From contig NZ_JAUSRH010000006.1 of the NCBI RefSeq assembly GCF_030811715.1, positions 1 through 64,000 on the forward strand: a stretch of 64,000 bases of DNA, written 5' to 3'. The notes beneath the pieces are model-generated. The model was not told the origin of the DNA and made no database searches. It saw only the letters and a program-made list of their open reading frames with translations. A program made the position numbers and the translations under genes. This DNA comes from Sinomonas atrocyanea. Its GTDB lineage: Bacteria > Actinomycetota > Actinomycetes > Actinomycetales > Micrococcaceae. Every line of letters begins with the position of its first letter. Positions within the stretch are counted from its first letter, which is position 1. This document shows, one piece after another, positions 3,795 through 63,327 of this stretch.

Positions 3795-4979
3795 ATGAGC
3801 GAGACCACCAAGAACCCCGGGACCATCCGCATCACCGCCGACGCGGGGCCGCCGAAGCGGCGCCGCGGCCTCGCGCTCGGGATCGGTGCCGCCGTCGTCG
3901 TCGCCCTCCTCGGCGGGGCCACCGCGGTCGCCGCCGCCGTGATCGGCGGGGAGCAGCGCACGACGCCGGCCTCCGCCGCCGGGGTCCCCGCACCGCAGCT
4001 GCGGCTCGGCTACTTCGGCAACGTCACCCACGCCCCGGCGCTCGTGGGCGTCCAGGACGGCCTCTTCGCCAAGACGCTCAAGGACGCCGGCACGGACGGC
4101 TTCAGCACCCAGGTGTTCAACGCGGGCCCGGCCGCGGTCGAGGCGCTCAACGCCGGGGCGATCGACGCGGCCTACCTCGGCCCGAACCCCGCCATCAACT
4201 CCTTCGTGCAGAGCCACGGCGAGTCCCTCTCCGTGATCGCGGGGGCGGCCGCGGGCGGCGCGCAGCTCGTGGTCAGGCCCGGCATCACGGCCCCGGACCA
4301 GCTCAGGGGCGCGGTCCTCGCCACGCCCCAGCTCGGCGGCACCCAGGACGTGGCGCTGCGCGCCTACCTCGCCTCCAAGAACCTGAAGGCCAGCCCCAAC
4401 GGCGGCGGCGACGTCACGGTCAACCCGACCGACAACGCCCAGACCCTCAAGCTCTTCCAGGACGGCAAGATCGACGGCGCCTGGCTGCCCGAGCCCTGGG
4501 CCTCCCGCCTCGTCCTGCAGGCGGGCGCGAAGGTGCTCGTGGACGAGAAGGACCTGTGGGACGGCACTGGCACGGGCAAGCCCGGCCTGTTCCCGACCAC
4601 CATCCTCGTGGTCAACAGGGCCTTCGCCGCGCAGCACCCGCAGACCGTCGAGGCCCTGCTGCGCGGCCATGTCGCCGCCATCGACTGGCTGGGCCGAGCG
4701 ACCGCCGCCGAGAAGGCCGCGACCGTCAACGCGGCGCTGAAGAAGGCTGCCGGCTCCGCCCTGCCCGCGAACGTGATCGAGCGCGCCCTGGCCAACATCA
4801 CGTTCACCACCGACCCGCTCGCGGGCGCCTACCCCAAGCTCCTCGCCGACGGCGTTACCGCGGGCGTCACCAAGCCCGCGGACCTCCACGGCCTCTTCGA
4901 CCTGCGCGCCCTCAATGCCGTCCTCGCCCGGGGCCCCGGGCACGCCAAGGCCAGCGCCGCCGGCCTGGGCCAAGACTGA
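3795..4979 (+). CDS. SsuA/NMT1-like ABC transporter substrate-binding protein
   Basis: A 394-residue extracytoplasmic solute-binding protein. A basic segment (PPKRRRG) leads into a hydrophobic stretch at about residues 28-50, a signal anchor or signal peptide; no lipobox cysteine is visible. The mature part begins with PQLRLGYFGNVTHAPALVG, typical of the sulfonate/nitrate/taurine (SsuA/NMT1) family, and has GAIDAAYLGPNPAIN and KIDGAWLPEPWASR. It heads an operon with an ATPase, a permease, siroheme synthase and ferredoxin reductase. That context suggests uptake of sulfonate or another oxidised sulfur source for sulfite reduction; the substrate is inferred only. A weak AAGGA lies 11 bases before the ATG. 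Confidence 0.88.
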   Translation: MSETTKNPGTIRITADAGPPKRRRGLALGIGAAVVVALLGGATAVAAAVIGGEQRTTPASAAGVPAPQLRLGYFGNVTHAPALVGVQDGLFAKTLKDAGTDGFSTQVFNAGPAAVEALNAGAIDAAYLGPNPAINSFVQSHGESLSVIAGAAAGGAQLVVRPGITAPDQLRGAVLATPQLGGTQDVALRAYLASKNLKASPNGGGDVTVNPTDNAQTLKLFQDGKIDGAWLPEPWASRLVLQAGAKVLVDEKDLWDGTGTGKPGLFPTTILVVNRAFAAQHPQTVEALLRGHVAAIDWLGRATAAEKAATVNAALKKAAGSALPANVIERALANITFTTDPLAGAYPKLLADGVTAGVTKPADLHGLFDLRALNAVLARGPGHAKASAAGLGQD

Positions 4980-5749: not shown

Positions 5750-6629
5750 CCCCACGCTCACGGAGCCGGCCTCCCTCGACGCCGAGCTCGCCGCCATCGA
5801 GGCCGGCCTGGACGAGCTCCAGTCGGACACCGTGCGGCGGCGCCGGGACCTCTCCCGGGTGCTCCTGCCGCTCATCGCCGTCGTGGTCCTCGTCCTCGCC
5901 TGGCAGCTCTACGTCACCCTCGGGCTCAAGCGCCGCGACCTCGTCCCCGGCCCCCTCGACGTCGCCGCCTCCCTCGGACAGCTGTGGGCCGAGGGCAAGG
6001 CCCAGGAGGCCGTGTGGACCTCACTCCAGCGCGGCCTGCTCGGCTTCGCCGTGAGCGTGGTCGTGGCCACCCCGCTCGGCCTGCTCCTGGGCCAGGTGAA
6101 GACGCTGCGCCGGGCGTTCGGACCGCTCATCTCCGGCCTGCAGGTCCTGCCGTCCGTCGCGTGGGTCCCCGCCGCGATCATCTGGTTCGGGCTCACCGAC
6201 GCGACCGTCTACTTCGTGGTGCTCATGGGGGCCATCCCCTCGATCGTCAACGGGCTCATCTCCGGGATCGACCAGGTCCCGCCGCAGTACCGCTCCGTCG
6301 CGAAGGTCCTGGGCGCCTCCCGGGCCGAGCTCGCGCTCCAGATCATCCTCCCCGCGGCCCTGCCCGGCTACGTCGCCGGGCTCAAGCAGGGCTGGGCGTT
6401 CTCGTGGCGCTCCCTCATGGCGGCGGAGATCATCGCGGTGGGCGGAACGCTCGGCTTCGGGCTCGGCTCGCTCCTGGACCAGGGCCGCACGCTCAGCGAC
6501 ATGGGCGTGGTCATGGGTGCGATCCTGATCATCCTCGCCGTCGGCATCGCGATCGAGCTCGCGGTCTTCTCACCCCTCGAGCGGCGCCTCCTGGCACGCC
6601 GCGGACTTCTCACCGGAGGCACGCGATGA
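5739..6629 (+). CDS. SsuC-like ABC transporter permease
   Basis: A 296-residue inner-membrane permease with about six hydrophobic segments between residues 40 and 285. The loop around SRAELALQIILPAALPGYVAG is the EAA-type contact with the ATPase. The gene overlaps the ATPase gene by 11 bases, and its own stop overlaps the next start in an ATGA, so translation is coupled along the operon. It forms the membrane channel for the importer encoded by the two genes upstream. Confidence 0.93.
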   Translation: MPSNPTLTEPASLDAELAAIEAGLDELQSDTVRRRRDLSRVLLPLIAVVVLVLAWQLYVTLGLKRRDLVPGPLDVAASLGQLWAEGKAQEAVWTSLQRGLLGFAVSVVVATPLGLLLGQVKTLRRAFGPLISGLQVLPSVAWVPAAIIWFGLTDATVYFVVLMGAIPSIVNGLISGIDQVPPQYRSVAKVLGASRAELALQIILPAALPGYVAGLKQGWAFSWRSLMAAEIIAVGGTLGFGLGSLLDQGRTLSDMGVVMGAILIILAVGIAIELAVFSPLERRLLARRGLLTGGTR

Positions 6630-26255: not shown

Positions 26256-27527
26256 GTGCGCAACTATCTGGCCGACACGAGTCCCCTCACGGAGAGCCCG
26301 GAGTTCAGGCGCCTCTGGTTCGGCCAGCTGCTGAGCATCCTCGGATCCCAGCTGACGGTCACGGCCGTGAGCCTGCAGATCTACGACCTCACGCGCTCGA
26401 GCTTCAATGTGGGACTGCTCGGGCTCGTGGCCCTCGTCCCGTTCGTGTTCGCGGGCCTCTACGGCGGTGCGATCGTGGACGCCCACGACCGCCGCACGGT
26501 CGCGATCGCCTCCTCGTGGCTCCTGTGGGGCACGAGCGCGCTCATCGCGCTCCAGGCGTGGCTTCGCCTCGAGAACGTCCTGCTCATCTACCTGCTCGTG
26601 GGCCTCCAGGCCCTCGGCACGGGCCTGAACATGCCCGCCCGCAGCGCGATCATCCCGCGGCTCCTGCGTCCCGAGAAGCTCGCGGCGGCCAACGCGCTGA
26701 ACATGATCACCTTCGGCCTCGGCGGCGCCGCCGGACCGCTGCTCGCCGGCGCGCTCGTGGCGTCGGTGGGCTACGGATGGACCTACACCTTCGACGTGCT
26801 CAGCTTCACCGTGGCGATGTGGGCGCTGTTCCGCCTGCCGCCGCTGCCGCCCGAGGGCGCGGTGCGGCGGGCCGGAATCCGCTCCGTCGCCGAGGGGTTC
26901 CAGTTCCTCGGCACGCGGCCCAACATCCGCATGACGTTCCTGATCGACATCTGCGCCATGGTCTTCGCGATGCCGCGCGCCGTGCTCCCGGCCGTCGCGG
27001 CCCTCGCCCTCGGCGGCGGCGCGGCCACGGCGGGCGCCCTCCTGGCCGGCATCGCCGCCGGCACGTTCCTGGGCGGCCTGTTCTCGGGGCCGGTCGCGCG
27101 GCTGCGCTGGCAGGGCCGCGGCGTCCAGTGGTCCGTGGTGGCGTGGGGCGCGAGCATCCTCGCGCTGGGGATCGTGGTGCTCTCGGCCGGGCGCACCTCC
27201 CCGGACGCGCCGACGTGGTGGGTGCTGCCCGCGATGCTCTGCATGGTCGCGGCGGGCGCGGCCGACTCCGTGAGCGCCGCCCTGCGCTCCACCATCCTGC
27301 AGGCGGCCACGCCGGACTCGATGCGCGGGCGCCTGCAGGGCGTGTTCACCGTGGTGGTCGGCGGCGGCCCGCGCCTCGGGGACGTGTTCTCCGGCGGGAT
27401 GGCCTCGTGGCTCGGCGAGGGCACCTCGATCGTGGTCGGCGCCCTCGTGTGCATCGCCCTCGTCTGGGTGCTGCACGTGGCGCAGCCGGGGTTTGCGCGC
27501 TACGACGCGGAGCACCCCACCCCCTAG
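26256..27527 (+). CDS. MFS transporter, EntS/exporter-like
   Basis: A 423-residue major-facilitator protein with about 12 helices. FGQLLSILGSQLTVTAVSLQ and the A-loop GLYGGAIVDAHDRRTVAIAS place it with EntS/multidrug-type exporters. A -10 box TAGGCT (26243-26248) is 7 bases before the GTG start, so it is likely leaderless. Its stop overlaps the stop of the convergent SufU-like gene by a few bases. Substrate unknown; no siderophore genes are near. Confidence 0.85.
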   Translation: MRNYLADTSPLTESPEFRRLWFGQLLSILGSQLTVTAVSLQIYDLTRSSFNVGLLGLVALVPFVFAGLYGGAIVDAHDRRTVAIASSWLLWGTSALIALQAWLRLENVLLIYLLVGLQALGTGLNMPARSAIIPRLLRPEKLAAANALNMITFGLGGAAGPLLAGALVASVGYGWTYTFDVLSFTVAMWALFRLPPLPPEGAVRRAGIRSVAEGFQFLGTRPNIRMTFLIDICAMVFAMPRAVLPAVAALALGGGAATAGALLAGIAAGTFLGGLFSGPVARLRWQGRGVQWSVVAWGASILALGIVVLSAGRTSPDAPTWWVLPAMLCMVAAGAADSVSAALRSTILQAATPDSMRGRLQGVFTVVVGGGPRLGDVFSGGMASWLGEGTSIVVGALVCIALVWVLHVAQPGFARYDAEHPTP

Positions 27528-28042
27528 CGGCGAGCCTCCAGGAGCGTCTGGGCTGCGGTCCAGGGCAGGAGGATGCAGCGGCGCCGCAGAGGAGCGACGG
27601 CCAGCTCAGCGAGCGCGAGCAGCGGCCCGGCGCAGGAGTCCTGGACGAAGGCCTCGTCGGAGCCCGGGGCTGGCCCGTCCGCTCCGACCCCCGTGAGCCG
27701 AGGGAGGGCTGACCGGTCCAGCGGCCGGCCGACCTCGCGGGCCGGGACCAGGACGGCGAGCAGGGCCGCAGCGTCCCGCGGCGCCATCGAGCGCACGGTG
27801 GCGGCCAGGAGCGACGCGGACGCACGCGAGAGGGTGCAGCCGCTGGCCGCTCCGCGGAGCACAGCCACCCCGTCCTCGACTGTCAGGGCCAGGTCCACCC
27901 TGTCGCCGCAGGTCGGGTTGACCCGCTCCAGACGCCGCGCATGGCGCAGGCCGTCTCCGTCGCCGAGAGGCGCCAGGCCGGGGGTGGTCCCTCCGTGCTG
28001 CCCGATGATCGCGAGGAGCTCCTCGCGGTCGAGGGCGTTCAT
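27524..28042 (-). CDS. SufU/IscU-like Fe-S cluster scaffold, purine-locus copy
   Basis: A 172-residue NifU_N-type scaffold. RVNPTCGDRVDL gives Cys45 and Asp47, ASGCTLSRASASLL gives Cys69, and LRRRCILLPW gives Cys156: the four metal/cluster ligands of SufU. The spacing between the second and third cysteine is longer than I expect for SufU. Its ATG overlaps the stop of the xanthine dehydrogenase gene (ATGA), so it is translationally coupled to an enzyme that needs two 2Fe-2S clusters. I infer it is a dedicated scaffold for that enzyme; a general SUF role is the alternative. No sufBCDS genes are adjacent. Confidence 0.85.
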   Translation of the reverse strand: MNALDREELLAIIGQHGGTTPGLAPLGDGDGLRHARRLERVNPTCGDRVDLALTVEDGVAVLRGAASGCTLSRASASLLAATVRSMAPRDAAALLAVLVPAREVGRPLDRSALPRLTGVGADGPAPGSDEAFVQDSCAGPLLALAELAVAPLRRRCILLPWTAAQTLLEARR

Positions 28043-31000
28043 CGGGGCCCCTCCGCGTCACGGACCCGCGGCGTCTGCTGCTCCTCGCGGGCGCGCAGTG
28101 CCGCATGGATGGTGTCGCGGGCGATCGGCGTGGTCGTGAAACGGATGCCGATGGCGTCGGCGATGGCGTTCGCCATGGCCGGCGCCACCGGGTTGAACGG
28201 CGACTCGCTCATGGACTTGGCCCCGCGGGGTCCCAGGGAGTCCTCGGTGTCGGCGAAGTACACCTCGCTGCGGGGGATGTCCGCGAAGGTCGGCACGTGG
28301 TACTGGCGCAGGATGTCGGAGGTGACCCGGCCGGCGTCGTCGATGCGGACCTGCTCGTGCAGCACCGCGCCGATGGCCTGGGCGATGCCGCCCTCGACCT
28401 GGCCGCGGCACTGGTGCGGGTTCATGACCTTCCCGGCATCGGCCGCCTGGACCGACTGCAGGATGCGCAGCTCGCCGGTGCCCGTGTTGACCGCCACGCG
28501 GAAGCCGTGGACGTTGAAGGACACCGACCTCGGGGTGCCGCCCCAGTGGCCCCGCCCCACGTAGCGCTCCTCATCGCTGCCCTCGGCCACGTCGCCGAGC
28601 AGTGCATCGAGCTCCACGTCGCCGTGCGGGGTGTGCACCACGGGTCCCGCGATCTCGCATTGCGCCGGGTCGCTGCGGGTGCGCGCTGCCGCGGCCTCAC
28701 GGATCGTGTCCGCCAGCTCTCGGGCGGCGGCGTCGGTGGCGCGGCCGGCCACGACTGTCCCCGTGGATCCGAAGGCCCCCGTGTCGTGCTCCACGAGGTC
28801 GGAGTCGGACTGGCGCAGGACCACGTGCTCGGTGGTGGTCCCCAGCGCGGTGGCCACCAGCTGCGCATGCACCGTGGAGGTCCCGTTGCCGAACTCGGCG
28901 GTGCCCACCCGGGCCTCGTACCGTCCTCCGGGCAGCAGGCGGACGCGGGCGTGCGCGTGGTGGCCGCGCGGCGGCACCGTGTCGATCATGGCGATCGCCG
29001 TGCCCTCGCCGACCTTCCACTCCGGTCCGAGCGGGGTGCTGTGCCCGGCGGCCTCCGCCGCCGCCTCGCGGCCACGGCCGCGGGCCAGCGCATCGCGGAC
29101 CAGGTCGATGCACTGGTCGAGCCCGTAGCTGCCGAAGTGGACGTCCTCCTCGGGCTGCTCGTGCATCGAGATCATCGGGTCCTCGATGCCCACGACGTTG
29201 CGCCGGCGGAATTCGAGGGGGTCCAGGCCCAGCTGGCGGGCGAGCTCGGACATGGCGGACTCGACGGCGAAGATCATCTGGCTCAGCCCGTACCCGCGGA
29301 ACGCGCCCGACGGCACGTTGTTGGTGTAGACCACGCACGCGTCGACCTTCTTGTTCGGGGCGCGGTAGACCGAGAGGGACTCCCCGCAGCCGTGGAACAT
29401 CACCCCCGGCCCGTGGTTGCCGTAGGCCCCGGTGTCGACGCGGACGTCCACGCCCAGCGCCGTGAGCCGGCCCTCGGCGTCGGCGCCGGCCCGGACGCGG
29501 ATCCTGAAGGGATGGCGCACGGTGGTGGCGGTGAACACCTCGCTGCGCGAGAGCTCCACCTTGACCGGCCGGCCGGTGGCCAGTGTGGCCAGGGCTGCCA
29601 GATCCTCGGTGAGCACTTCCTGCTTCCCGCCGAAGCCGCCCCCCACCCGCTCGCAGAACACCCGGACCCTGTCCTGGGGCAGGCCGAGGATGCGGGAGAG
29701 CGTGCGGCGGACGAGGAAGGGGACCTGGGTGCTGGAGCGCACCACGAGCCGGCCCTCCTCGTCGGTCCACGCGATGGAGCCGTGCGTCTCGAGCGCCACG
29801 TGGGAGAGGCGGTGGGTGCGGTAGGTGTCCTCGTGGACCACCGCCGCTGCCGCGAGGCCCTCCTCCAGGCTGCCGATCTCGCCGTGGGCCACGGCGAGGA
29901 TGTTCCGCTCTGGATCGGCGATGCGCGAGTCCTCGGCGTCGCGCCCGGCGTGGAGGGCGGGCGCGCCCGGGGCGTCCGCCTGCTCGGGATCCAGGACCAC
30001 CGGGAGCACCTCGTAGCGGACCTCCATGAGCCGGGCTGCCCGATCGGCCGCCCGAGGGGTCTCGGCGACGACGAGGGCGACGCGCTGCCCGACGTGGCGC
30101 ACCACGTCGTCGAGGATGCGAGTGTCGTCGGGATCATCGGTGTGCAGCTCGTGCTGCGCCGAGGAGAACCGGACGGCGGGCGCGTCCTCGTGGGTCAGGA
30201 CGGCCACGACTCCGGGCTCCCGGAGCGCACGGGAGGAATCGATGCCCAGCACCCGGGCGTGGGCGTGCGGGGAGCGCACGATCGCCGCGTGCAGCAGCGG
30301 GGCCGGCAGGTCCGCGGGGCCGACGTCCATGGTGTAGCGCACCGTGCCCGTGACCACGCCGGGGCCCTGGGGCGCTCCGGTGCTGGCGCCGACCCCGCCA
30401 TAGCCGTCCTCCACGTTCACACGCCCGTGCACGGCGTCCTCGATCGAGCGGTAGCCGGTGCACCGGCACAGGTTGCCCTTGAGGCTGCGGGGCAGGTTCG
30501 AGCGCTCCCGGTCGGTGAAGGCGGAGGCGGTCATGATCATGCCGGCGGTGCAGAAGCCGCACTGGAACCCCCCGGCCCGCAGGAACGCCTCCTGCGTCGG
30601 GTGCAGGTGCTCGGGCGTCCCCAGGCCCTGGATGGTCGTCACCGTGCGGCCGGAGGCCCGGTGGGCCGGGTAGATGCAGCTGTGCACGGGGGCGCCGTCC
30701 ACGTGGACGGTGCAGGCGCCGCAGTCCCCGGCATCGCAGCCCTTCTTCACGCCGAGGGCACCGTTGTCGCGGAGCCAGGTGCGCAGGCACTGCCCCGGTT
30801 CGGGGCGGACGGGCACGGTGCGGCCGTCGACGACGGCCTCGCCGTCGCGGGGCGGCGGGGAGACGGGATCGCCGGTGGTCCTTTCCACGGTGATGTCGCC
30901 GGTGGTGTGCGCTGCCGCGGCGGACGTGCCGGGCAGCAGTTCGACGAGGATCTCTTCCCCGAGGCGATGGGTCATGGCGCGCCGCCATTCGGGGGCGCCG

Positions 31001-31824
31001 TGGACGTCGTCGTGCCAGCCTCCGTCTCCTACCGACGCGCCGAGGGCTGAGCGCCAGCCCGCGCCCGTGGCCGCCGGCTGCCCGTCCCCTCCGAGGTCGA
31101 TCACGTGGGGGCGCCGCGTGGAGGCCGTCACGACGATGCGGACGCGGCCGGGCGCGGTGCGGCGGCCGATGAGCAGGGCGGCAGACCGGCCCCGTTCGGT
31201 CAGGGAGATCCGCCGGAACGCGGAGGGCTGGCGCAGGGCCGCAAGGGGAATGCGGAAGCAGCGGATGAGCTCGCCGTCGCGCAGCGCCGTGCGCGCCTCG
31301 TCGAGGACGAGGTCCGCGACTGCCAGCTCGCGGCGCGTGCCCTCGGGGCCGAGCAGGACGGCGACGGCATCGAGGCCGGCCAGCAGCGACGTCATGGGCC
31401 CGGCCGGGAGGGCCGTCGCCACGTTGCCGCCGACGGTCGAGACATTCCAGATCTTGTAGGAGGCGACGAAGGAGTCGCAGCAGGGCCGGAAGAGGTCCAG
31501 TCCGGGCAGCAGGTCCCGGGGCGCCGGCAGCTCTGCGGCGTCGGGCAGGGCGTAGACGTCGGCCACCCGGCAGGTGGCGGCCAGCTCGAGGGCGGGGACC
31601 GCGGGCGCGCCTCCGCTCGCGCCCTCCGGGCCTCCGCCGCTGGGGTGCCAGACCACGGCGGCCCATCCCGCGCCCGTGAGGTCCAGGAGGCGCCGCGGCC
31701 GGCCGCGGGTGATGTCTGTCCCATAGGAGAGCAGCACGGTGCCGCCGGCCAGCCACGAGTCGCCGGGCTGCCACTCGTCGGGGTCCGCGCTCATCAGCAC
31801 CTCATCGACACTGGTCATGTCCAT
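28039..31824 (-). CDS. Fused xanthine dehydrogenase-type molybdoenzyme (FAD / 2Fe-2S / Mo domains)
   Basis: A 1261-residue single-chain xanthine-oxidase-family enzyme. Domains in order: FAD (about 1-300; TVGGNVATALPAGP), two 2Fe-2S (about 330-460; GCDAGDCGACTV and GFQCGFCTAG...NLCRCTGY), and molybdopterin (about 485-1261; RVGGGFGGKQE, GAFRGYGLSQ, GTAEFGNGTST, catalytic Glu in RGAKSMSESPF). The order differs from eukaryotic XDH (Fe-S first) and matches fused CoxM-S-L subunits. No stop interrupts the frame. Position 802-equivalent is Gln rather than Glu; the Arg of FRG is kept. Its start overlaps xdhC (Met at 31818 would give an ATGA overlap; I chose 31824, with AAGG upstream). Context (guanine deaminase, purine permease) points to xanthine as substrate. 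Confidence 0.92.
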   Translation of the reverse strand: MDMTSVDEVLMSADPDEWQPGDSWLAGGTVLLSYGTDITRGRPRRLLDLTGAGWAAVVWHPSGGGPEGASGGAPAVPALELAATCRVADVYALPDAAELPAPRDLLPGLDLFRPCCDSFVASYKIWNVSTVGGNVATALPAGPMTSLLAGLDAVAVLLGPEGTRRELAVADLVLDEARTALRDGELIRCFRIPLAALRQPSAFRRISLTERGRSAALLIGRRTAPGRVRIVVTASTRRPHVIDLGGDGQPAATGAGWRSALGASVGDGGWHDDVHGAPEWRRAMTHRLGEEILVELLPGTSAAAAHTTGDITVERTTGDPVSPPPRDGEAVVDGRTVPVRPEPGQCLRTWLRDNGALGVKKGCDAGDCGACTVHVDGAPVHSCIYPAHRASGRTVTTIQGLGTPEHLHPTQEAFLRAGGFQCGFCTAGMIMTASAFTDRERSNLPRSLKGNLCRCTGYRSIEDAVHGRVNVEDGYGGVGASTGAPQGPGVVTGTVRYTMDVGPADLPAPLLHAAIVRSPHAHARVLGIDSSRALREPGVVAVLTHEDAPAVRFSSAQHELHTDDPDDTRILDDVVRHVGQRVALVVAETPRAADRAARLMEVRYEVLPVVLDPEQADAPGAPALHAGRDAEDSRIADPERNILAVAHGEIGSLEEGLAAAAVVHEDTYRTHRLSHVALETHGSIAWTDEEGRLVVRSSTQVPFLVRRTLSRILGLPQDRVRVFCERVGGGFGGKQEVLTEDLAALATLATGRPVKVELSRSEVFTATTVRHPFRIRVRAGADAEGRLTALGVDVRVDTGAYGNHGPGVMFHGCGESLSVYRAPNKKVDACVVYTNNVPSGAFRGYGLSQMIFAVESAMSELARQLGLDPLEFRRRNVVGIEDPMISMHEQPEEDVHFGSYGLDQCIDLVRDALARGRGREAAAEAAGHSTPLGPEWKVGEGTAIAMIDTVPPRGHHAHARVRLLPGGRYEARVGTAEFGNGTSTVHAQLVATALGTTTEHVVLRQSDSDLVEHDTGAFGSTGTVVAGRATDAAARELADTIREAAAARTRSDPAQCEIAGPVVHTPHGDVELDALLGDVAEGSDEERYVGRGHWGGTPRSVSFNVHGFRVAVNTGTGELRILQSVQAADAGKVMNPHQCRGQVEGGIAQAIGAVLHEQVRIDDAGRVTSDILRQYHVPTFADIPRSEVYFADTEDSLGPRGAKSMSESPFNPVAPAMANAIADAIGIRFTTTPIARDTIHAALRAREEQQTPRVRDAEGPR

Positions 31825-32990
31825 CTCGTCTGCACCTTTCGCGAGTCGGGTCCTGTGCGCGCGCCGCGCGCCGCGTGGACGGGTCCGGCGGTGCCGCTCA
31901 GGGGGAGCACGGCAGCGGCCCTCTCGCGCTTGGCCGCGATCACTTCCGCGAGGATCGCCACGGCGACCTCGCCGGGGGTCAGCGCCCCGATGTCCAAACC
32001 GATGGGGGAGTGGAGCCGGCGCAGCAGGGCCTCCGGCAGGCCGCCGCGGAGCAGGTCCTGCGCGCGGCGTTCGTGGGTGGTGCGTGAGCCCATGGCCCCC
32101 ACATAGGCCAGGTCCATCCGCAGGGCCTGATCCAGGACGGCAAGGTCGAACCGGGGATCGTGGCCCAGGACGGCGACCGCCGTGCGGGCATCGACGCGGC
32201 CCGCCGCCCGCTCGGCCTGAAGGTGGACAGCCGGCGTCTCGGTCACGACCTCGTGCGCGCAGGGGTGGCGGGCCGCCGTGGAGAACAGCGGCCGGGCATC
32301 GCACACCGTGACGTGCCAGCCGAGGGGCCGGGCGGCCGCGGCCAGTGCCGCCGCGTAGTCGTTGGCGCCGTAGACGATCAGCCGGGGCGGGGGGCGGTGC
32401 GACTCGACGAGCAGGCGCCCGAGGACCGGGCACCCGTCCGCCTCGTCGGCGCGTACGGGCACGATTCTGGTGCCCCCGGCCTCCAGCGCTGCCCGCAGCT
32501 CCTGGGCGGAACGGTCCGGCAGCGCCGCCCGCAGCGCGGCGGGCAGGGCGACGGACGGGTCCAGGAGCGCCGGCGCCGGCAGGCCGGCGGCGGCCCCCGG
32601 GAGGGGGCGGACGAGGGCGACCGGCCGCGAGGGGGGCATTCCCGCCACCGCGGCCAGCGCCGGCAGCACGGGACCGAGGTCCGCCATCGGCTGGAGAAGG
32701 ACCTGGAGGCTGCCCCCGCAGGTCAGGCCGATGCCCAGACCGTCCTCGTCGCCGTAGCCGAACTCGATGACGCCGGCGATCCCGGTCTCGAGGACCGTCA
32801 GGCAGGCGTCCACCACGGCGGCTTCGACGCATCCGCCCGACACCGATCCCACGGCGAGCCCGTCGCGCCGCACGGCCATGGACGTCCCGGGCGGCCGCGG
32901 GACGGAACCCGAGGCGGCCACGACGGTGGCGACGGCCCACTCTCGGTGCTCGGCGAGGGCCGGCGCGAAGTCCTGGAGGCGCTCGAGCAT
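31815..32990 (-). CDS. xdhC: XdhC/CoxI-family molybdenum-cofactor insertion protein
   Basis: A 391-residue protein. The N-terminal XdhC_CoxI domain (ATVVAASGSVPRPPGTSM, SVSGGCVEAAV) and the C-terminal Rossmann domain (RLIVYGANDYAAALAAAA; YVGAMGSRTTHERR) are complete. The family binds Mo cofactor, helps sulfurate it and inserts it into xanthine dehydrogenase. The ATG at 32990 follows CCGGAGGCGG; in-frame ATGs upstream (33020, 33095) lie in what I read as a ~200-base leader. The gene is first in xdhC-xdh-sufU, with overlapping genes throughout. Confidence 0.93.
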   Translation of the reverse strand: MLERLQDFAPALAEHREWAVATVVAASGSVPRPPGTSMAVRRDGLAVGSVSGGCVEAAVVDACLTVLETGIAGVIEFGYGDEDGLGIGLTCGGSLQVLLQPMADLGPVLPALAAVAGMPPSRPVALVRPLPGAAAGLPAPALLDPSVALPAALRAALPDRSAQELRAALEAGGTRIVPVRADEADGCPVLGRLLVESHRPPPRLIVYGANDYAAALAAAARPLGWHVTVCDARPLFSTAARHPCAHEVVTETPAVHLQAERAAGRVDARTAVAVLGHDPRFDLAVLDQALRMDLAYVGAMGSRTTHERRAQDLLRGGLPEALLRRLHSPIGLDIGALTPGEVAVAILAEVIAAKRERAAAVLPLSGTAGPVHAARGARTGPDSRKVQTRWT

Positions 32991-33137
32991 AGTCACCGCC
33001 TCCGGGCGGGGCAGGGGCATGCTGAAGGGAAGGTCACGGCGGTCAACTCCTCGGTGGCTCGCGTGGGCCGCCGCGGGGGCGGAGCGCCGGAACATCCTGA
33101 GGAGGCACCGGGGGCTCTCTGGCGGCAGGCCAGCGCG

Positions 33138-33190
33138 ATGGCGTGGTTGCTCGCCCGGTAGATAGTCCAGTCAGGACCCGCCATGGGCTG
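33138..33190 (-). ncRNA. Candidate structured leader element, xdhC side
   Basis: On the minus strand, starting about 7 bases after the -10 box: CAGCCC, then ATGGCG (33184-33179) that can pair with CGCCAT (33143-33138), a hairpin GTCC-TGACT-GGAC (33177-33165), then CTATCTACCGGGC (33165-33153). The same arrangement occurs in the guaD leader. A competing GGCG/CGCC pairing (33155-33152 with 33143-33140) excludes the outer stem, which could be a switch. Hand-folded; a protein operator is the alternative reading. Confidence 0.55.
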
Positions 33191-33196
33191 GGTCAC

Positions 33197-33226
33197 ACCG
33201 TAGCGGAAACGCCTCGCCGACTGCAA
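33197..33226 (-). promoter_or_regulatory. Predicted xdhC-xdh-sufU promoter
   Basis: On the minus strand TTGCAG (33226-33221), an 18-base spacer and TACGGT (33202-33197). The -10 is identical to that of the divergent guaD promoter. It predicts a start near 33190 and a ~200-base leader before xdhC. Confidence 0.65.
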
Positions 33227-33254
33227 TGGCTTCCGGGTGCGCATGCCGAAAAAT

Positions 33255-33268
33255 GGAAAAGTTTTTCC
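33255..33268. promoter_or_regulatory. AT-rich palindrome between the divergent purine promoters
   Basis: GGAAAA-GT-TTTTCC is a perfect 6-bp inverted repeat with 2-base centre, in an unusually A/T-rich island, between the xdhC -35 (33226) and the guaD -35 (33278). It is well placed to control both directions. Confidence 0.5.
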
Positions 33269-33277
33269 GCGGATGTG

Positions 33278-33306
33278 TTGCGCCTCACGGGCGGCTGCCC
33301 TACGGT
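33278..33306 (+). promoter_or_regulatory. Predicted guaD operon promoter
   Basis: TTGCGC (33278-33283), a 17-base spacer and TACGGT (33301-33306). It predicts a transcript start near 33313 and a leader of about 120 bases before guaD. Confidence 0.65.
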
Positions 33307-33312
33307 TGTCTC

Positions 33313-33380
33313 AGCCAATGGCGGGCCCCGGTTGCAGGGGCTATCTACCGGGCATGATCTGACAGCCGGGTGGACCCGCC
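33313..33380 (+). ncRNA. Candidate structured leader element, guaD side
   Basis: GGCGG (33320-33324) pairs with CCGCC (33376-33380). Inside, GCCCC (33325-33329) pairs with GGGGC (33337-33341) around a 7-base loop, followed by CTATCTACCGGGC (33341-33353). Compared with the xdhC-side copy, one stem pair is C-G here and U-A there, i.e. a compensatory change. The string resembles the J2/3 segment of guanine riboswitches (TTTCTACC), but the rest of that consensus is missing. Confidence 0.55.
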
Positions 33381-33404
33381 GACGGACATGAACCGTTCCC
33401 TTGG

Positions 33405-33426
33405 GTCCTCCCATGACGCACAGGAC
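33405..33426 (+). promoter_or_regulatory. Hairpin that would mask the guaD ribosome site
   Basis: GTCCT (33405-33409) can pair with AGGAC (33422-33426), and AGGA is the only purine-rich ribosome-site candidate before the ATG at 33436. It could be the output part of a leader switch. Confidence 0.4.
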
Positions 33427-33435
33427 GTGAGCATC

Positions 33436-33933
33436 ATGTCGACCACTCCCCAAGGAATCATTCGCACCGAGGACTTCCTCGAACGCGCCATCGACCTCGC
33501 GGCCCGGAACGCGGCCGCCGACGGAGGGCCGTTCGGCGCCGTCGTCGTCACGCCGGACGGGCGGGAATTCTTCGCCGTCAACCGGGTGACCGCGGACAAC
33601 GACCCCACGGCGCACGCCGAGGTCATGGCGATCCGTACCGCGTGCACCGCGCTGGGCACCTTTGACCTCACCGGCTCGGTGCTCTACACCAGCTGTGAGC
33701 CCTGCCCGCTGTGCCTGTCCGCGTCGCTGTGGGCGCGGCTCGACGCCGTGTACTTCGCCGCAGACCGCCACGACGCGGCTGCCGGCGGGTTCGACGATGC
33801 GGAGTTCTACGAGTTCTTCGCGCGCAGCCCCGAGGAGAGGGACAAGGCCCTCCCGGTCCGCCACATCGCCGTGGAGCGCCGGACCGCACCGTTCGAAGCC
33901 TGGGCTGCCAACACCAGCCGCACCGAATACTGA
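33436..33933 (+). CDS. guaD: Guanine deaminase, CDA-fold type
   Basis: A 165-residue zinc deaminase of the cytidine-deaminase fold, like Bacillus GuaD (about 156 residues). The zinc motif is TAHAEVMAIR with SCEPCPLCLSA; the flanking DGGPFGAVVV is typical. It converts guanine to xanthine, the substrate of the dehydrogenase encoded divergently. An in-frame ATG at 33388 is possible, but it lies in the leader and would add an atypical tail. It is first in a guaD-permease-mocA transcript. Confidence 0.92.
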   Translation: MSTTPQGIIRTEDFLERAIDLAARNAAADGGPFGAVVVTPDGREFFAVNRVTADNDPTAHAEVMAIRTACTALGTFDLTGSVLYTSCEPCPLCLSASLWARLDAVYFAADRHDAAAGGFDDAEFYEFFARSPEERDKALPVRHIAVERRTAPFEAWAANTSRTEY

Positions 33934-34060: not shown

Positions 34061-35668
34061 ATGTCACCGACCACAACAGACGCTGGCAACCAGACCCCGG
34101 CCCGGGCGAGCCGCTGGGGACGTGCAGCACGCACGGGCCACGCTCCGGGCCCCGAGGACGAGAAGCTCCCGCTGGGGCGTACCGGCGCCTACGGCTTCCA
34201 GCACGTCCTCACCATGTACGGCGCCATCGTCGCCGTCCCGCTCATCATCGGCCAGGCCGCCGGACTCTCCGGCGAGAAGGTCGCCCTGCTCATCAGCTCC
34301 TGCCTGCTCATGGGCGGCATCGCGACCATCGTGCAGAGCGTGGGCGCCCCGTTCATCGGCTCGCGCCTGCCGCTCGTCCAGGGTGTCTCCTTCGCCGGGG
34401 TCGCCCCCATGCTGGCGATCCTGGCCGGCGGGCACGACCTCACCGCCATCTTTGGGGCCGTCATCGTCTCCTCGGCGGTGGGCTTCCTGACGGCCGGCGC
34501 GTTCTCGCGCATCATCCGCTTCTTCCCGCCGGTCGTCACCGGCACCGTCATCACGGTCATCGGGATCTCCCTGCTCCCGGTGGCGATCTCCTGGGCCGCC
34601 GGGCATGGCGCGGGCGGGGCCGCCGACCTGCGCAGCCTCGGCCTCGCCGGCGCGACGCTGCTCATCGTGCTCCTGCTGTCCAAGGTGGGCGTCGGGATGA
34701 TCTCGCGCCTGTCGATCCTGCTGTCCTTCATCCTCGGCACCGGCGTGGCCGCGGCCCTGGGCATGGTGGACTTCTCGGGCGTGGGCCGCGGCGCCCCGAT
34801 CACCTTCCCCACACCCCTGGCCTTCGGTCCGCCGACCTTCGAGGTGGCCTCGATCATCTCGATGCTCATCGTGGTCCTCGTGACCATGACCGAGACGACG
34901 GCGGACATCCTCGCCGTCGGCGAGATTGTCGGAGCCAAGGTCGACGCCCGCCGCGTCGCCAACGGCCTGCGCGCGGACATGTTCTCCTCCGCCTGCGCAC
35001 CGCTGCTGAACTCGTTCACGCAGACGGCCTTCGCTGCCAACGTGGGCCTCGTCGCCGTGACCGGCATCCGCAGCCGCTTCGTGGTCGCAGCGGCCGGCGT
35101 CATCATGGCCATGCTGGGCATGTTCCCCGCCATCGGCCAGGTGGTCGCGGCCATCCCCGAACCGGTCCTCGGCGGAGCCTCGATCGTGCTCTTCGGCACC
35201 GTGGCCTCCTCCGGAGTGCGCACCCTGGCCAAGGTGGACTACCGGAACTCGATGAACCTGGTCGTCGTGGCGGTGGCGTTCGCCTTCGGCCTGATCCCGG
35301 TGGCCGCGCCGAACTTCTACCGCGACTTCCCCGCCTGGGCCCAGACGATCCTGGGCTCCGGGATCAGCGCCGCCGCGATCGTCGCGATCATCCTCAACCT
35401 CCTCTTCAACGAACTGCGGGCGGGCAACTCCCGGAACCAGTCGGTCCTTGCGGCCGCGCCGGTGCGGATCGTGCGGGCGGACGCGCTGACCCACCTGCGT
35501 GAAGGGGACCAGCTCCGCAACGGGGCCATCGTCGACTGCGACGGCACCGAGGTGGCGGTGGTCCCGGAGCACTGCTTCGAGGACGTGCACCGGATGATCG
35601 GGGCCGGCGAGATCACCGACACCGGTCAGGTGCACAGGATCCTTCAGGAACGGCAAGTGCCCCGGTGA
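34061..35668 (+). CDS. NCS2-family purine (xanthine/urate-type) permease
   Basis: A 535-residue nucleobase:cation symporter with about 14 membrane segments. The family QH motif is in YGFQHVLTMYGAIVAVPLI and the signature region reads MTETTADILAVGEIVGAKVD. A hydrophilic tail of about 70 residues follows the last helix. Start behind GAAGGAGG with an 8-base gap. Between guanine deaminase and the MocA-like gene, with xanthine dehydrogenase opposite, a purine (xanthine or urate) is a likelier cargo than uracil. It sits 127 bases after guaD; the stop overlaps the next start (GTGA). Confidence 0.9.
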   Translation: MSPTTTDAGNQTPARASRWGRAARTGHAPGPEDEKLPLGRTGAYGFQHVLTMYGAIVAVPLIIGQAAGLSGEKVALLISSCLLMGGIATIVQSVGAPFIGSRLPLVQGVSFAGVAPMLAILAGGHDLTAIFGAVIVSSAVGFLTAGAFSRIIRFFPPVVTGTVITVIGISLLPVAISWAAGHGAGGAADLRSLGLAGATLLIVLLLSKVGVGMISRLSILLSFILGTGVAAALGMVDFSGVGRGAPITFPTPLAFGPPTFEVASIISMLIVVLVTMTETTADILAVGEIVGAKVDARRVANGLRADMFSSACAPLLNSFTQTAFAANVGLVAVTGIRSRFVVAAAGVIMAMLGMFPAIGQVVAAIPEPVLGGASIVLFGTVASSGVRTLAKVDYRNSMNLVVVAVAFAFGLIPVAAPNFYRDFPAWAQTILGSGISAAAIVAIILNLLFNELRAGNSRNQSVLAAAPVRIVRADALTHLREGDQLRNGAIVDCDGTEVAVVPEHCFEDVHRMIGAGEITDTGQVHRILQERQVPR

Positions 35669-36270
35669 GCCGCCCCTGCGTCGTCGTGCTCGCGGCAGGC
35701 CTCGGGAGGCGGCTGGGCCGCGGCCCCAAGGCCCTGCTGAGGCTCGAGGGGGAGACCCTGGCGGCCCGGGCCGTCCGGGTCGCCGCCGCGGCCGGCGGGC
35801 GCCCCGTCCTGGTCCTCGGGCCGCAGGCGGACGAGATCGCGGCGTCGGCGCAGCAGCCGGAGCGCGAGGGGGACCTGGTGGTCCTGCGCGTCACCGGATG
35901 GGAGGAAGGGATGTCCCGGGCCTGGCGGGCGGGCGTGGAGCACGCCGCGCGGCTGGAGCCCGGGATGCCCGTGGCGATCATGCTCGTGGACCAGCCCGGC
36001 GTCGGCCCCGAGGTCATCTCCCGGCTCCTCTCGGTCCACCGTCCCGGGCGGATCACCCGGGCCGCCTACCGGGGGCGGCCGGGCCACCCCGTGGTCCTCG
36101 ACCCGTCCCAGGCCGCGGCCGCTGCGCGCGGGGCCCGGGGCGATACGGGAGCGAGGGAGTACCTGCAGGCCCACCTCGACGCCGTCGACACGGTCGAATG
36201 CGCCGACCTCGGCAGCGACGACGACATCGACGTCCCCGCGGATCTGGCACGCTGGCCCGGCCTCGGCTGA
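35665..36270 (+). CDS. mocA: MocA-like molybdenum cofactor cytidylyltransferase
   Basis: A 201-residue nucleotidyltransferase: VVVLAAGLGRRLGRGPKALL is the NTP-binding signature and MLVDQPGVGPEVI the metal-binding Asp region. Members convert Mo-molybdopterin to the cytosine dinucleotide form used by xanthine-oxidase-family enzymes. The GTG start overlaps the permease stop. Together with XdhC it covers cofactor maturation of the dehydrogenase in this locus. It could also be a MobA-like enzyme, but the context favours MocA. Confidence 0.85.
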   Translation: MSRPCVVVLAAGLGRRLGRGPKALLRLEGETLAARAVRVAAAAGGRPVLVLGPQADEIAASAQQPEREGDLVVLRVTGWEEGMSRAWRAGVEHAARLEPGMPVAIMLVDQPGVGPEVISRLLSVHRPGRITRAAYRGRPGHPVVLDPSQAAAAARGARGDTGAREYLQAHLDAVDTVECADLGSDDDIDVPADLARWPGLG

Positions 36271-37451: not shown

Positions 37452-37533
37452 GGCAGATTACCCGAGCGGCCAAAGGGGGCTGACTGTAAATCAGCTGGCA
37501 TTGCCTACGGGGGTTCGAATCCCTCATCTGCCA
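37452..37533 (+). tRNA. tRNA-Tyr (GTA)
   Basis: An 82-base class-II tRNA. Acceptor GGCAGAT pairs with ATCTGCC (37526-37532); anticodon stem GCTGA/TCAGC encloses CTGTAAA with anticodon GTA at 37486-37488; a long variable arm and GGTTCGAATCC T-arm follow. CCA is not encoded. Confidence 0.95.
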
Positions 37534-63119: not shown

Positions 63120-63191
63120 GCCCCCCTAGCTCAGTGGTAGAGCGCCATCTTGGTAAGATGGAGGTCACGGGATCGATTCCCGTGGGGGGCT
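63120..63191 (+). tRNA. tRNA-Thr (GGT)
   Basis: A 72-base cloverleaf: acceptor GCCCCCC/GGGGGGC (63184-63190), anticodon stem CCATC/GATGG with loop TTGGTAA and anticodon GGT at 63152-63154, T-arm CACGGGATCGATTCCCGTG. CCA is not encoded. Confidence 0.95.
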
Positions 63192-63253: not shown

Positions 63254-63327
63254 GGCGGTGTAGCTCAGCTGGTTAGAGCGCACGACTCATAATCGTGAGG
63301 TCCCGGGATCGAGTCCCGGCACCGCTA
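63254..63327 (+). tRNA. tRNA-Met (CAT), elongator type
   Basis: A 74-base cloverleaf: acceptor GGCGGTG pairs with CACCGCT (63320-63326, first pair G-U), anticodon CAT at 63288-63290 in ACTCATAA, T-arm CCGGGATCGAGTCCCGG. The first-pair type and the lack of three G-C pairs in the anticodon stem mark it as elongator rather than initiator. Confidence 0.93.

Follow-up and report, generated by a model that had tools for sequence, protein, structure and literature searches.

We propose that purine-catabolism operons in a bacterial family that we take to be the Micrococcaceae carry, at their predicted transcription start, a structured RNA that acts in cis and is most probably (roughly 0.7) the aptamer of a new riboswitch class. 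Two copies face away from each other in a 64,000-nucleotide stretch of Sinomonas atrocyanea DNA (the window), where the first-pass annotation had named a candidate new RNA switch. The proposal is supported by covariation, by a predicted start of transcription at the element, and by the purine genes that stand behind all accepted copies. Features by which a riboswitch is recognised were found, namely a folded, conserved RNA in the 5' leaders of genes with a coherent metabolic role, and an alternative pairing that links the conserved core to the expression platform through a co-varying downstream pairing.

Two leader copies in one intergenic region

The same block had been described downstream of two divergent promoters (33136-33382), both with the -10 box TACGGT and with the block 4-6 bases further on. 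The sequence bears this out, the block lying 5 nt past the -10 box in the plus copy and 6 nt past it in the minus copy. Both copies hold the identical 13-mer CTATCTACCGGGC (33341-33353, plus; 33165-33153, minus), and their hairpins differ as reported, by a compensatory second pair (C-G in the plus, guaD copy; U-A in the minus, xdhC copy) and by one extra pair (5 bp in the plus copy against 4 bp in the minus copy). The core is made up of P1 (GYC/GGY), J1 (ANGGCGG), a covarying P2 hairpin of variable length, and J2 (UAUCUACC). Bit scores refer to covariance models built from 15 copies (R1) and from 83 copies (R2).

33278-33283, plus: -35 hexamer TTGCGC of the guaD promoter, 17-nt spacer to the -10 box (from sequence)
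33301-33306, plus: -10 box TACGGT of the guaD promoter (from sequence and the family statistics of TANNNT)
From 33312, plus: block CAGCCAATGGCGGG, 5 nt past the -10 box
33313-33357, plus: guaD copy of the RNA core (R1 59.4 bits, R2 56.3 bits; covariation)
33314-33316 and 33351-33353, plus: 5' and 3' strands of P1, guaD core
33317-33324 and 33342-33349, plus: J1 and J2, guaD core
33325-33329 with 33337-33341, plus: P2, guaD core
33226-33221, minus: -35 hexamer TTGCAG of the xdhC promoter, 18-nt spacer to the -10 box (from sequence)
33202-33197, minus: -10 box TACGGT of the xdhC promoter (from sequence and the family statistics of TANNNT)
From 33190, minus: block CAGCCCATGGCGGG, 6 nt past the -10 box
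33189-33149, minus: xdhC copy of the RNA core (R1 51.5 bits, R2 50.8 bits)
33188-33186 and 33155-33153, minus: 5' and 3' strands of P1, xdhC core
33185-33178 and 33164-33157, minus: J1 and J2, xdhC core
33177-33174 with 33168-33165, minus: P2, xdhC core

The pattern GGCGGGN{6,25}CTATCTACC matched exactly twice in the 4.23-Mb genome, both times in this intergenic region, and its reversed control gave no match in the genome. The covariance models likewise returned two matches in this genome.

Purine-oxidation genes had been assigned to both sides, and the Pfam and NCBIfam domains fit that assignment, with a deaminase, a permease and a MobA-like protein on the plus strand and XdhC, an XDH-type enzyme and a scaffold on the minus strand.

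33422-33426, plus: guaD Shine-Dalgarno AGGAC, 9 nt before the ATG (from sequence)
33436-33933, plus: guaD, guanine-deaminase-like protein of the CMP/dCMP deaminase fold, 165 aa (Pfam PF00383, E 1.1e-22)
34064-35668, plus: PbuX-type NCS2 permease, start codon provisional (PF00860, E 1.3e-83)
35665-36270, plus: MobA-like (MocA-like) NTP transferase (PF12804, E 1e-26; NCBIfam matches below cut-off)
31815-32990, minus: xdhC, XDH maturation factor (PF13478, E 1.5e-37; PF02625, E 5.8e-22)
28039-31830, minus: xanthine-dehydrogenase-type molybdoenzyme (PF02738, E 1.8e-81; also PF20256, PF01315, PF01799 and PF00941)
27524-28042, minus: SufU/NifU_N-like scaffold (PF01592, E 1.6e-5; TIGR01994 at 45.8 bits, below its cut-off of 92.5)

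The guaD product matched no NCBIfam model at its cut-off, and we take it to be a guanine deaminase from context. The permease scored 475 bits against TIGR03173 (pbuX; cut-off 414), and the molybdoenzyme carries its FAD, 2Fe-2S and Mo domains in a single open frame, with NCBIfam XDH models below cut-off. The xdhC leader also contains a 14-codon frame, GTG...TGA (33037-32993, minus), which lies behind GAGGAG and stops two nt before the likely xdhC ATG. By eye, a similar small frame precedes xdhC at two other loci (L012 and L051), and such a frame may couple translation of the leader to that of xdhC.

Distribution of the element and the genes behind it

The first-pass annotation had suggested that leaders be collected from the family and a covariance model built from them; doing so recovered the element across the family. 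The exact pattern together with an ATG matched in 14 of 149 family genomes, one match (L010) not being a leader copy. R1 found the element in 124 of 345 family genomes and 16 of 32 genera (E<=0.01), and R2 in 139 of 360 genomes and 15 of 32 genera (E<=0.001). Searched at the level of the order, 12 of 297 genomes matched, all of them within the Micrococcaceae. The R1 search of the class gave 9 matching genomes among 394, of which three belong to the family and six are weak (E 4e-4 to 9.5e-3). The search of the phylum gave 4 among 296 (two in the family and two weak). We rejected the eight weak matches from outside the family, all inside open frames of at least 450 nt, a location that is weak evidence against them since such frames are common in GC-rich DNA. 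A pattern scan of named genomes found at least 80 loci. Of the 80 listed, 61 are from Micrococcaceae and 19 from elsewhere; the 61 include Arthrobacter, Pseudarthrobacter, Paenarthrobacter, Glutamicibacter, Kocuria, Tersicoccus, Zhihengliuella and Specibacter. The 19 were rejected as members, with best R1 scores of at most 32.3 bits; the three of them that we inspected all lie in open frames, the best one SDR-like by eye.

For the downstream genes we examined 101 R1 matches, a part of the family-wide set, and tabulated 89 after leaving out 12 near-identical ones. Four low-scoring matches (L110, L114, L115 and L117) were rejected; none was recovered with R2, and L114 lies in a genome (G081) without a guaD match. 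All 85 accepted copies precede purine-catabolism genes: guaD in 64, an XDH subunit in 12, xdhC in six and a purine permease in three. The guaD class comprises copies with a guaD-type frame at most 700 nt downstream, and the other copies were classed by the first recognised gene. The weaker gene calls are one permease made by eye only (L082) and one XDH made from a 58-residue tblastn match (L070). At one locus (L103) the XDH gene begins 390 nt behind the core. A further 16 loci were examined, and every one has a guaD-type frame behind the element.

Searched for independently at the protein level, guaD was found in 73 of the 149 family genomes. All 49 listed R2-positive genomes among these 149 were guaD-positive, and none of the 76 guaD-negative genomes was listed (Fisher 1.8e-21, presuming that all 149 lie within the 360 searched with R2). 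Among the listed R2 matches, 45 of 53 sit 79-161 nt upstream of a guaD gene on the same strand, as located by the protein search, and low-scoring matches of 30.9-32.0 bits (G050, G098, G135 and G141) occupy the guaD-upstream position too. Counted by locus, 45 of 91 guaD loci have a listed copy and 46 have none, so the element is not essential. One genome (G113, L063) holds two same-strand copies 2.3 kb apart (4001-4047 and 6323-6366), one before guaD and one before xdhC/XDH genes.

Covariation of the core

Covariation was assessed on alignment A4, which holds 83 matches from 75 of 93 loci, with 79 distinct rows used; it was fitted to a covariance model and therefore leans towards the modelled structure. 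Within the core pairs, 94.9% of cells are paired, and six of 11 pairs changed on both sides, a count equalled by 3 of 500 shuffles. The covariation score was 0.242, compared with 0.133 for shuffles (none of 500 reached the real value) and at most 0.063 for slid controls. Alignment A3 agrees, and both alignments contain the covarying pairs whose absence from homologous leaders had been named as grounds for dropping the switch proposal. Most of the core covariation arises from P2.

J1 and J2 are near-invariant while P2 and its loop vary. Across the 83 rows of A4 the near-invariant positions are A in column 6, GGCGGG in columns 8-13, U59-C66, G68 and G69; U63 is kept in 78 rows, and some weak members have degenerate J2 strings. 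In six leaders from part of the window's genus (L106, L108, L112, L116, L249 and L250), a second hairpin is inserted in the P2 arm with the pocket unchanged, as judged by eye, which indicates that P2 tolerates insertion.

P1 is paired in 99.6% of cells, with a single true exchange (L102, ACC/GGU) beside a number of G-U wobbles; a second exchange in A3 came from the rejected match L110. A competing 5' hairpin (GYC/GGC) is paired in 99.2% of cells. We consider the 3-bp GYC/GGY helix a likely, if thinly supported, outer stem; the 5' hairpin may possibly form in its place, and L102 alone favours P1. Closure of both copies by GGCG/CGCC, as first described, is not supported as a general feature. Paired with the downstream leader in 49 leaders, GGCGGG did slightly better than shuffled sequence: 5 of 200 shuffles equalled it, and 27 of the 49 leaders fell below their shuffle median. 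GGCGGG/CCCGCC is thus poorly supported as a general P1. The part that stood is local to the window's own subgroup, where the perfect match (33320-33325 with 33375-33380) is kept in all seven leaders, once as GGCGGG/CCUGCC.

Predicted transcription start

In 83 of 85 leaders, 4-16 nt separate the end of a TANNNT box from the first G of the core; in 73 of these the gap is 6-9 nt. Shuffled upstream sequences gave a mean of 16 and a maximum of 27, and a control offset gave 11. As the usual distance from the -10 box to the transcription start is 6-8 nt, the transcript should begin at or next to GYC, and we infer that the 5' end of the RNA lies at the core. A transcription start downstream of the element, which had been named as evidence against a switch, is not what the -10 spacing predicts. 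A -35-like hexamer was present, under a loose rule, in only 49 of 85 leaders.

Many guaD promoters have a further conserved stretch of DNA that covers the -35 or lies upstream of it (by eye; 33240-33290 in the window), which reads GAA(A)NNNNTTTCC, then TGT[GT]GCGNNNNTCACA, and which we take to resemble CRP/GlxR half-sites. TGT[GT]GN6-7CACA occurs in 11 of 85 leaders and the strict form TGTG-N7/8-CACA in four of 85.

A second layer of pairing downstream of the core

Downstream of the core, the leaders contain further pairing strands. The 5' strand of the P3 helix overlaps J2 and the 3' strand of P1, and P3 thus competes with the core fold.

33347-33353, plus: P3 5' strand ACCGGGC (UACCNGGY shuffle test over 49 leaders)
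33365-33371, plus: P3 3' strand GCCGGGU, with one G-G mismatch against 33347-33353 (from sequence and alignment A6)
33368-33377, plus: relay strand GGGUGGACCC, overlapping the P3 3' strand; nine of ten positions pair with 33403-33412
33403-33412, plus: putative anti-Shine-Dalgarno GGGUCCUCCC, able to pair with 33368-33377 or, via GUCCU, with the Shine-Dalgarno (by eye)
33160-33154, minus: P3 5' strand UACCGGG of the xdhC leader, complement at 33112-33107
33112-33107, minus: P3 3' strand CCCGGU of the xdhC leader (from sequence, by eye)
33105-33099, minus: CCUCCUC after the xdhC P3 3' strand, able to pair with GAGGAG at 33052-33047 (by eye)

From the 64 guaD leaders we used 51 for swaps, 49 for shuffles and 48 for forced folding, after removal of near-duplicates, short leaders and one pairing failure. 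In 49 leaders from 13 genera, UACCNGGY, on the 3' side of the core, paired with the downstream leader at a mean of -9.0 kcal/mol, compared with -6.9 for shuffled sequences (0 of 200 as good). Per leader, 40 of 49 fell below their own shuffle median, and only 12 of 49 fell below 0.05 alone. The 8 nt on either side of UACCNGGY showed no clear downstream pairing (176 of 200 shuffles as good for those before it, 18 of 200 for those after). Swapping UACCNGGY between leaders gave 10 of 5000 as good, with an outlier included whose leader is too short for the search window (L105), and support for P3 is therefore taken from the shuffle test.

The 3' strand of P3 in turn pairs with the segment from -45 to -17 before the start codon. 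Its mean energy over 49 leaders was -18.0 against -13.7 when shuffled (0 of 200), with 43 of 49 leaders below the shuffle median and 20 below 0.05; in a control in which the partner was the gene's first 29 nt, 92 of 200 shuffles were as good. Exchanging partners among 51 leaders weakened the pairing from -17.7 to -14.0 (0 of 5000). A further set of 12 leaders, drawn from the 16 further loci, came to -18.2, against -13.9 after shuffling (0 of 300) and -14.6 after swapping (2 of 3000). Because three of the 12 were half or more alike to the first set, we repeated the test with the nine others, which came to -17.0, against -13.9 for shuffled sequences (0 of 500) and -14.2 for exchanged partners (54 of 5000). 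Changed relay pairs can be picked out by eye, such as GAAGCCUG/CAGGCUUC (L064), GCAGCAGUC/GACUGCUGC (L096), AAGCUGCCAG/CUGGCGGCUU (L084), GGAAGUCUGGCC/GGCCGGGCUUCC (L106) and GAAGUCUGG/CCAGACUUC (L249), and base changes in the relay strand are likewise seen by eye in A6, an alignment of seven subgroup leaders. The case for a switch draws its strongest evidence from P3 and its pre-Shine-Dalgarno partner, which the first-pass annotation had missed.

The XDH leaders of genus g6 (10 distinct) show a related arrangement. Their inner P3 strand is paired with the pre-Shine-Dalgarno segment in 95.7% of cells; two of the pairs show changes on both sides, a result that 19 of 500 shuffles equal. Their outer P3 is paired in 97% of cells with hardly any variation, and no covariation was seen in a local inner hairpin of these 10 leaders.

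The last link, between the Shine-Dalgarno and the anti-Shine-Dalgarno, is the weakest of the mechanism. Across the family it stands marginally above shuffles (9 of 200 as good), and swapped partners do as well (1105 of 5000). When 48 leaders were folded with the core imposed, predicted mean Shine-Dalgarno access stayed level (0.334 to 0.345; control 0.338, p 0.57; 17 up, 13 down).

Proposed mechanism, ligand and direction of control

We propose that the internal loop formed by J1 and J2 would bind a purine of the guanine-to-urate route. The bound ligand would keep UACCNGGY within the core and so block P3; the freed 3' strand of P3 would then take up the anti-Shine-Dalgarno and allow ribosome entry, an ON switch with induction by substrate. 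Given the weak Shine-Dalgarno link and the forced folding without effect, we regard translation initiation as a quite probable control step, and the model leans towards ON for its direction, which the forced folding leaves to be argued from the pairing scheme. Gene content ranks xanthine first among the candidate ligands, guanine second, and then hypoxanthine or urate. Xanthine is placed first since GuaD makes it, XDH consumes it and the PbuX-type permease probably carries it. The full picture, to which we give even odds, is of a compact Micrococcaceae class with a two-strand pocket, ANGGCGG/UAUCUACC, that would sense xanthine or guanine and turn guaD, xdhC/XDH and permease operons ON by a core/P3/anti-Shine-Dalgarno relay.

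A riboswitch of the opposite sign shares most of this picture, overlapping with our preferred explanation. On this reading, binding of the ligand to the core would tip the Shine-Dalgarno towards closure, as feedback by product, and energy folding gave no preference between the two. Comparable genes are under NMT1, which is reported to turn expression off (PMC7373994). We consider an OFF switch unlikely, since a literal reading of the pairing relay leads to ON and the genes serve substrate use.

Less probable still is a leader RNA bound by a regulatory protein, with J1/J2 as the protein site and P3 and the relay as an attenuator. The conserved internal loop and the competing downstream pairing would fit such a protein equally well, but no regulator gene stood out among the identified downstream genes, and the J1/J2 loop has the small size and, over 83 copies, the near-invariance that ligand pockets usually show.

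Relation to known riboswitch classes and other readings

The first-pass annotation had judged that neither the purine nor the NMT1 consensus was matched in full, and a cmscan search agrees. Rfam 15, which holds an NMT1 model, gave chance-level matches only, far below gathering, for the window leaders (E<=10) and for nine homologous loci (E<=5), and NMT1 was not among them in either set. The only Rfam matches in the window at or above the gathering score are tRNA genes, at 63120-63191, 63254-63327 and 37452-37533. RF00167 had no match in the window's genome at E<=0.001, while the same search matches Bacillus subtilis and Lactococcus lactis controls.

A diverged guanine-I/purine riboswitch (RF00167 and its variants) would read P2, J2-3 (UAUCUA-CC) and P3 as parts of a three-stem junction, with GGCGGG/CCCGCC, which the window copy is able to form, as its P1. 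Beyond the shared purine genes, J2 equals UNUCUACC of the guanine riboswitch J2-3, and P3 starts at the same point. Purine riboswitches have a conserved J1-2 (UAUAAU) and kissing loops L2/L3. Set against this consensus, J1-2 and the conserved loops are absent here; by eye, no conserved L2 was found, since the P2 loop varies in length and sequence and holds inserted stems in some copies. The element is modelled with a two-strand internal loop in place of a three-stem junction, GGCGGG showed little sign of a general downstream complement in the 49 leaders, and the window leaders gave no RF00167 match even at E<=10. We therefore hold this reading to be very improbable.

A new class, as we prefer to read the element, would resemble xanthine-I (NMT1), which also has a small hairpin with conserved nucleotides in the junctions beside P1 and P2 and stands before purine-oxidation genes (PMC8266621). 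The NMT1 junction letters given there, A6 G7 A8 A9 G10 C11 G12 / C33 C34 G35 ... A38 A39 U40, differ by eye from ANGGCGG/UAUCUACC and from the near-invariant A4 columns. NMT1 is reported from alpha-, beta- and gamma-Proteobacteria and as an OFF switch (PMC7373994), whereas the element here is proposed to be ON. Xanthine-II and guanine-II are reported as guanine-riboswitch variants with three-stem junctions in Firmicutes, xanthine-II preceding xanthine dehydrogenase genes among others (PMC9295807). Surveys of 26 and of 50 bacterial genomes (PMC8632094 and PMC11109978) report candidate structured RNAs by the same method and with the same kind of evidence; a term search of passages in their main texts found no matching motif. 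Among the papers listed by searches of the open PMC library, judged mostly from those listings, none described the motif.

Two further readings were disfavoured. A DNA operator for a transcription factor, placed downstream of the promoter by chance, would account for a sequence common to two promoters at a fixed -10 spacing. The distance between the conserved blocks varies, P2 shows the covariation of an RNA helix and the P3 strand changes in step with the far leader, and this covariation at the RNA level makes an operator highly improbable. A leader peptide starting at the AUG of AUGGCGGG, which adjoins the predicted transcription start in both window copies, and acting by attenuation is very improbable for the family, since only 23 of 83 aligned copies have AUG (22 AAG, 34 ACG, two gapped) and the spacing to CUAUCUACC shifts by non-multiples of three.

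Implications

If the proposal is true, the element would be a further independent RNA solution to the sensing of xanthine or guanine, and the echo of the guanine riboswitch J2-3 in J2 would have come about by convergence or remote descent. Xanthine sensing is described, in the papers cited above, for NMT1 in Proteobacteria and for guanine-riboswitch variants in Firmicutes. A compact actinobacterial class would be a separate solution, with one purine again recognised by unrelated pockets. The window's intergenic region offers a ready-made test pair, since its divergent copies share a pocket but differ in P2 hairpins and platforms. Such a class would account for the control of purine use in Arthrobacter-type organisms and give GC-rich soil bacteria a small control part.
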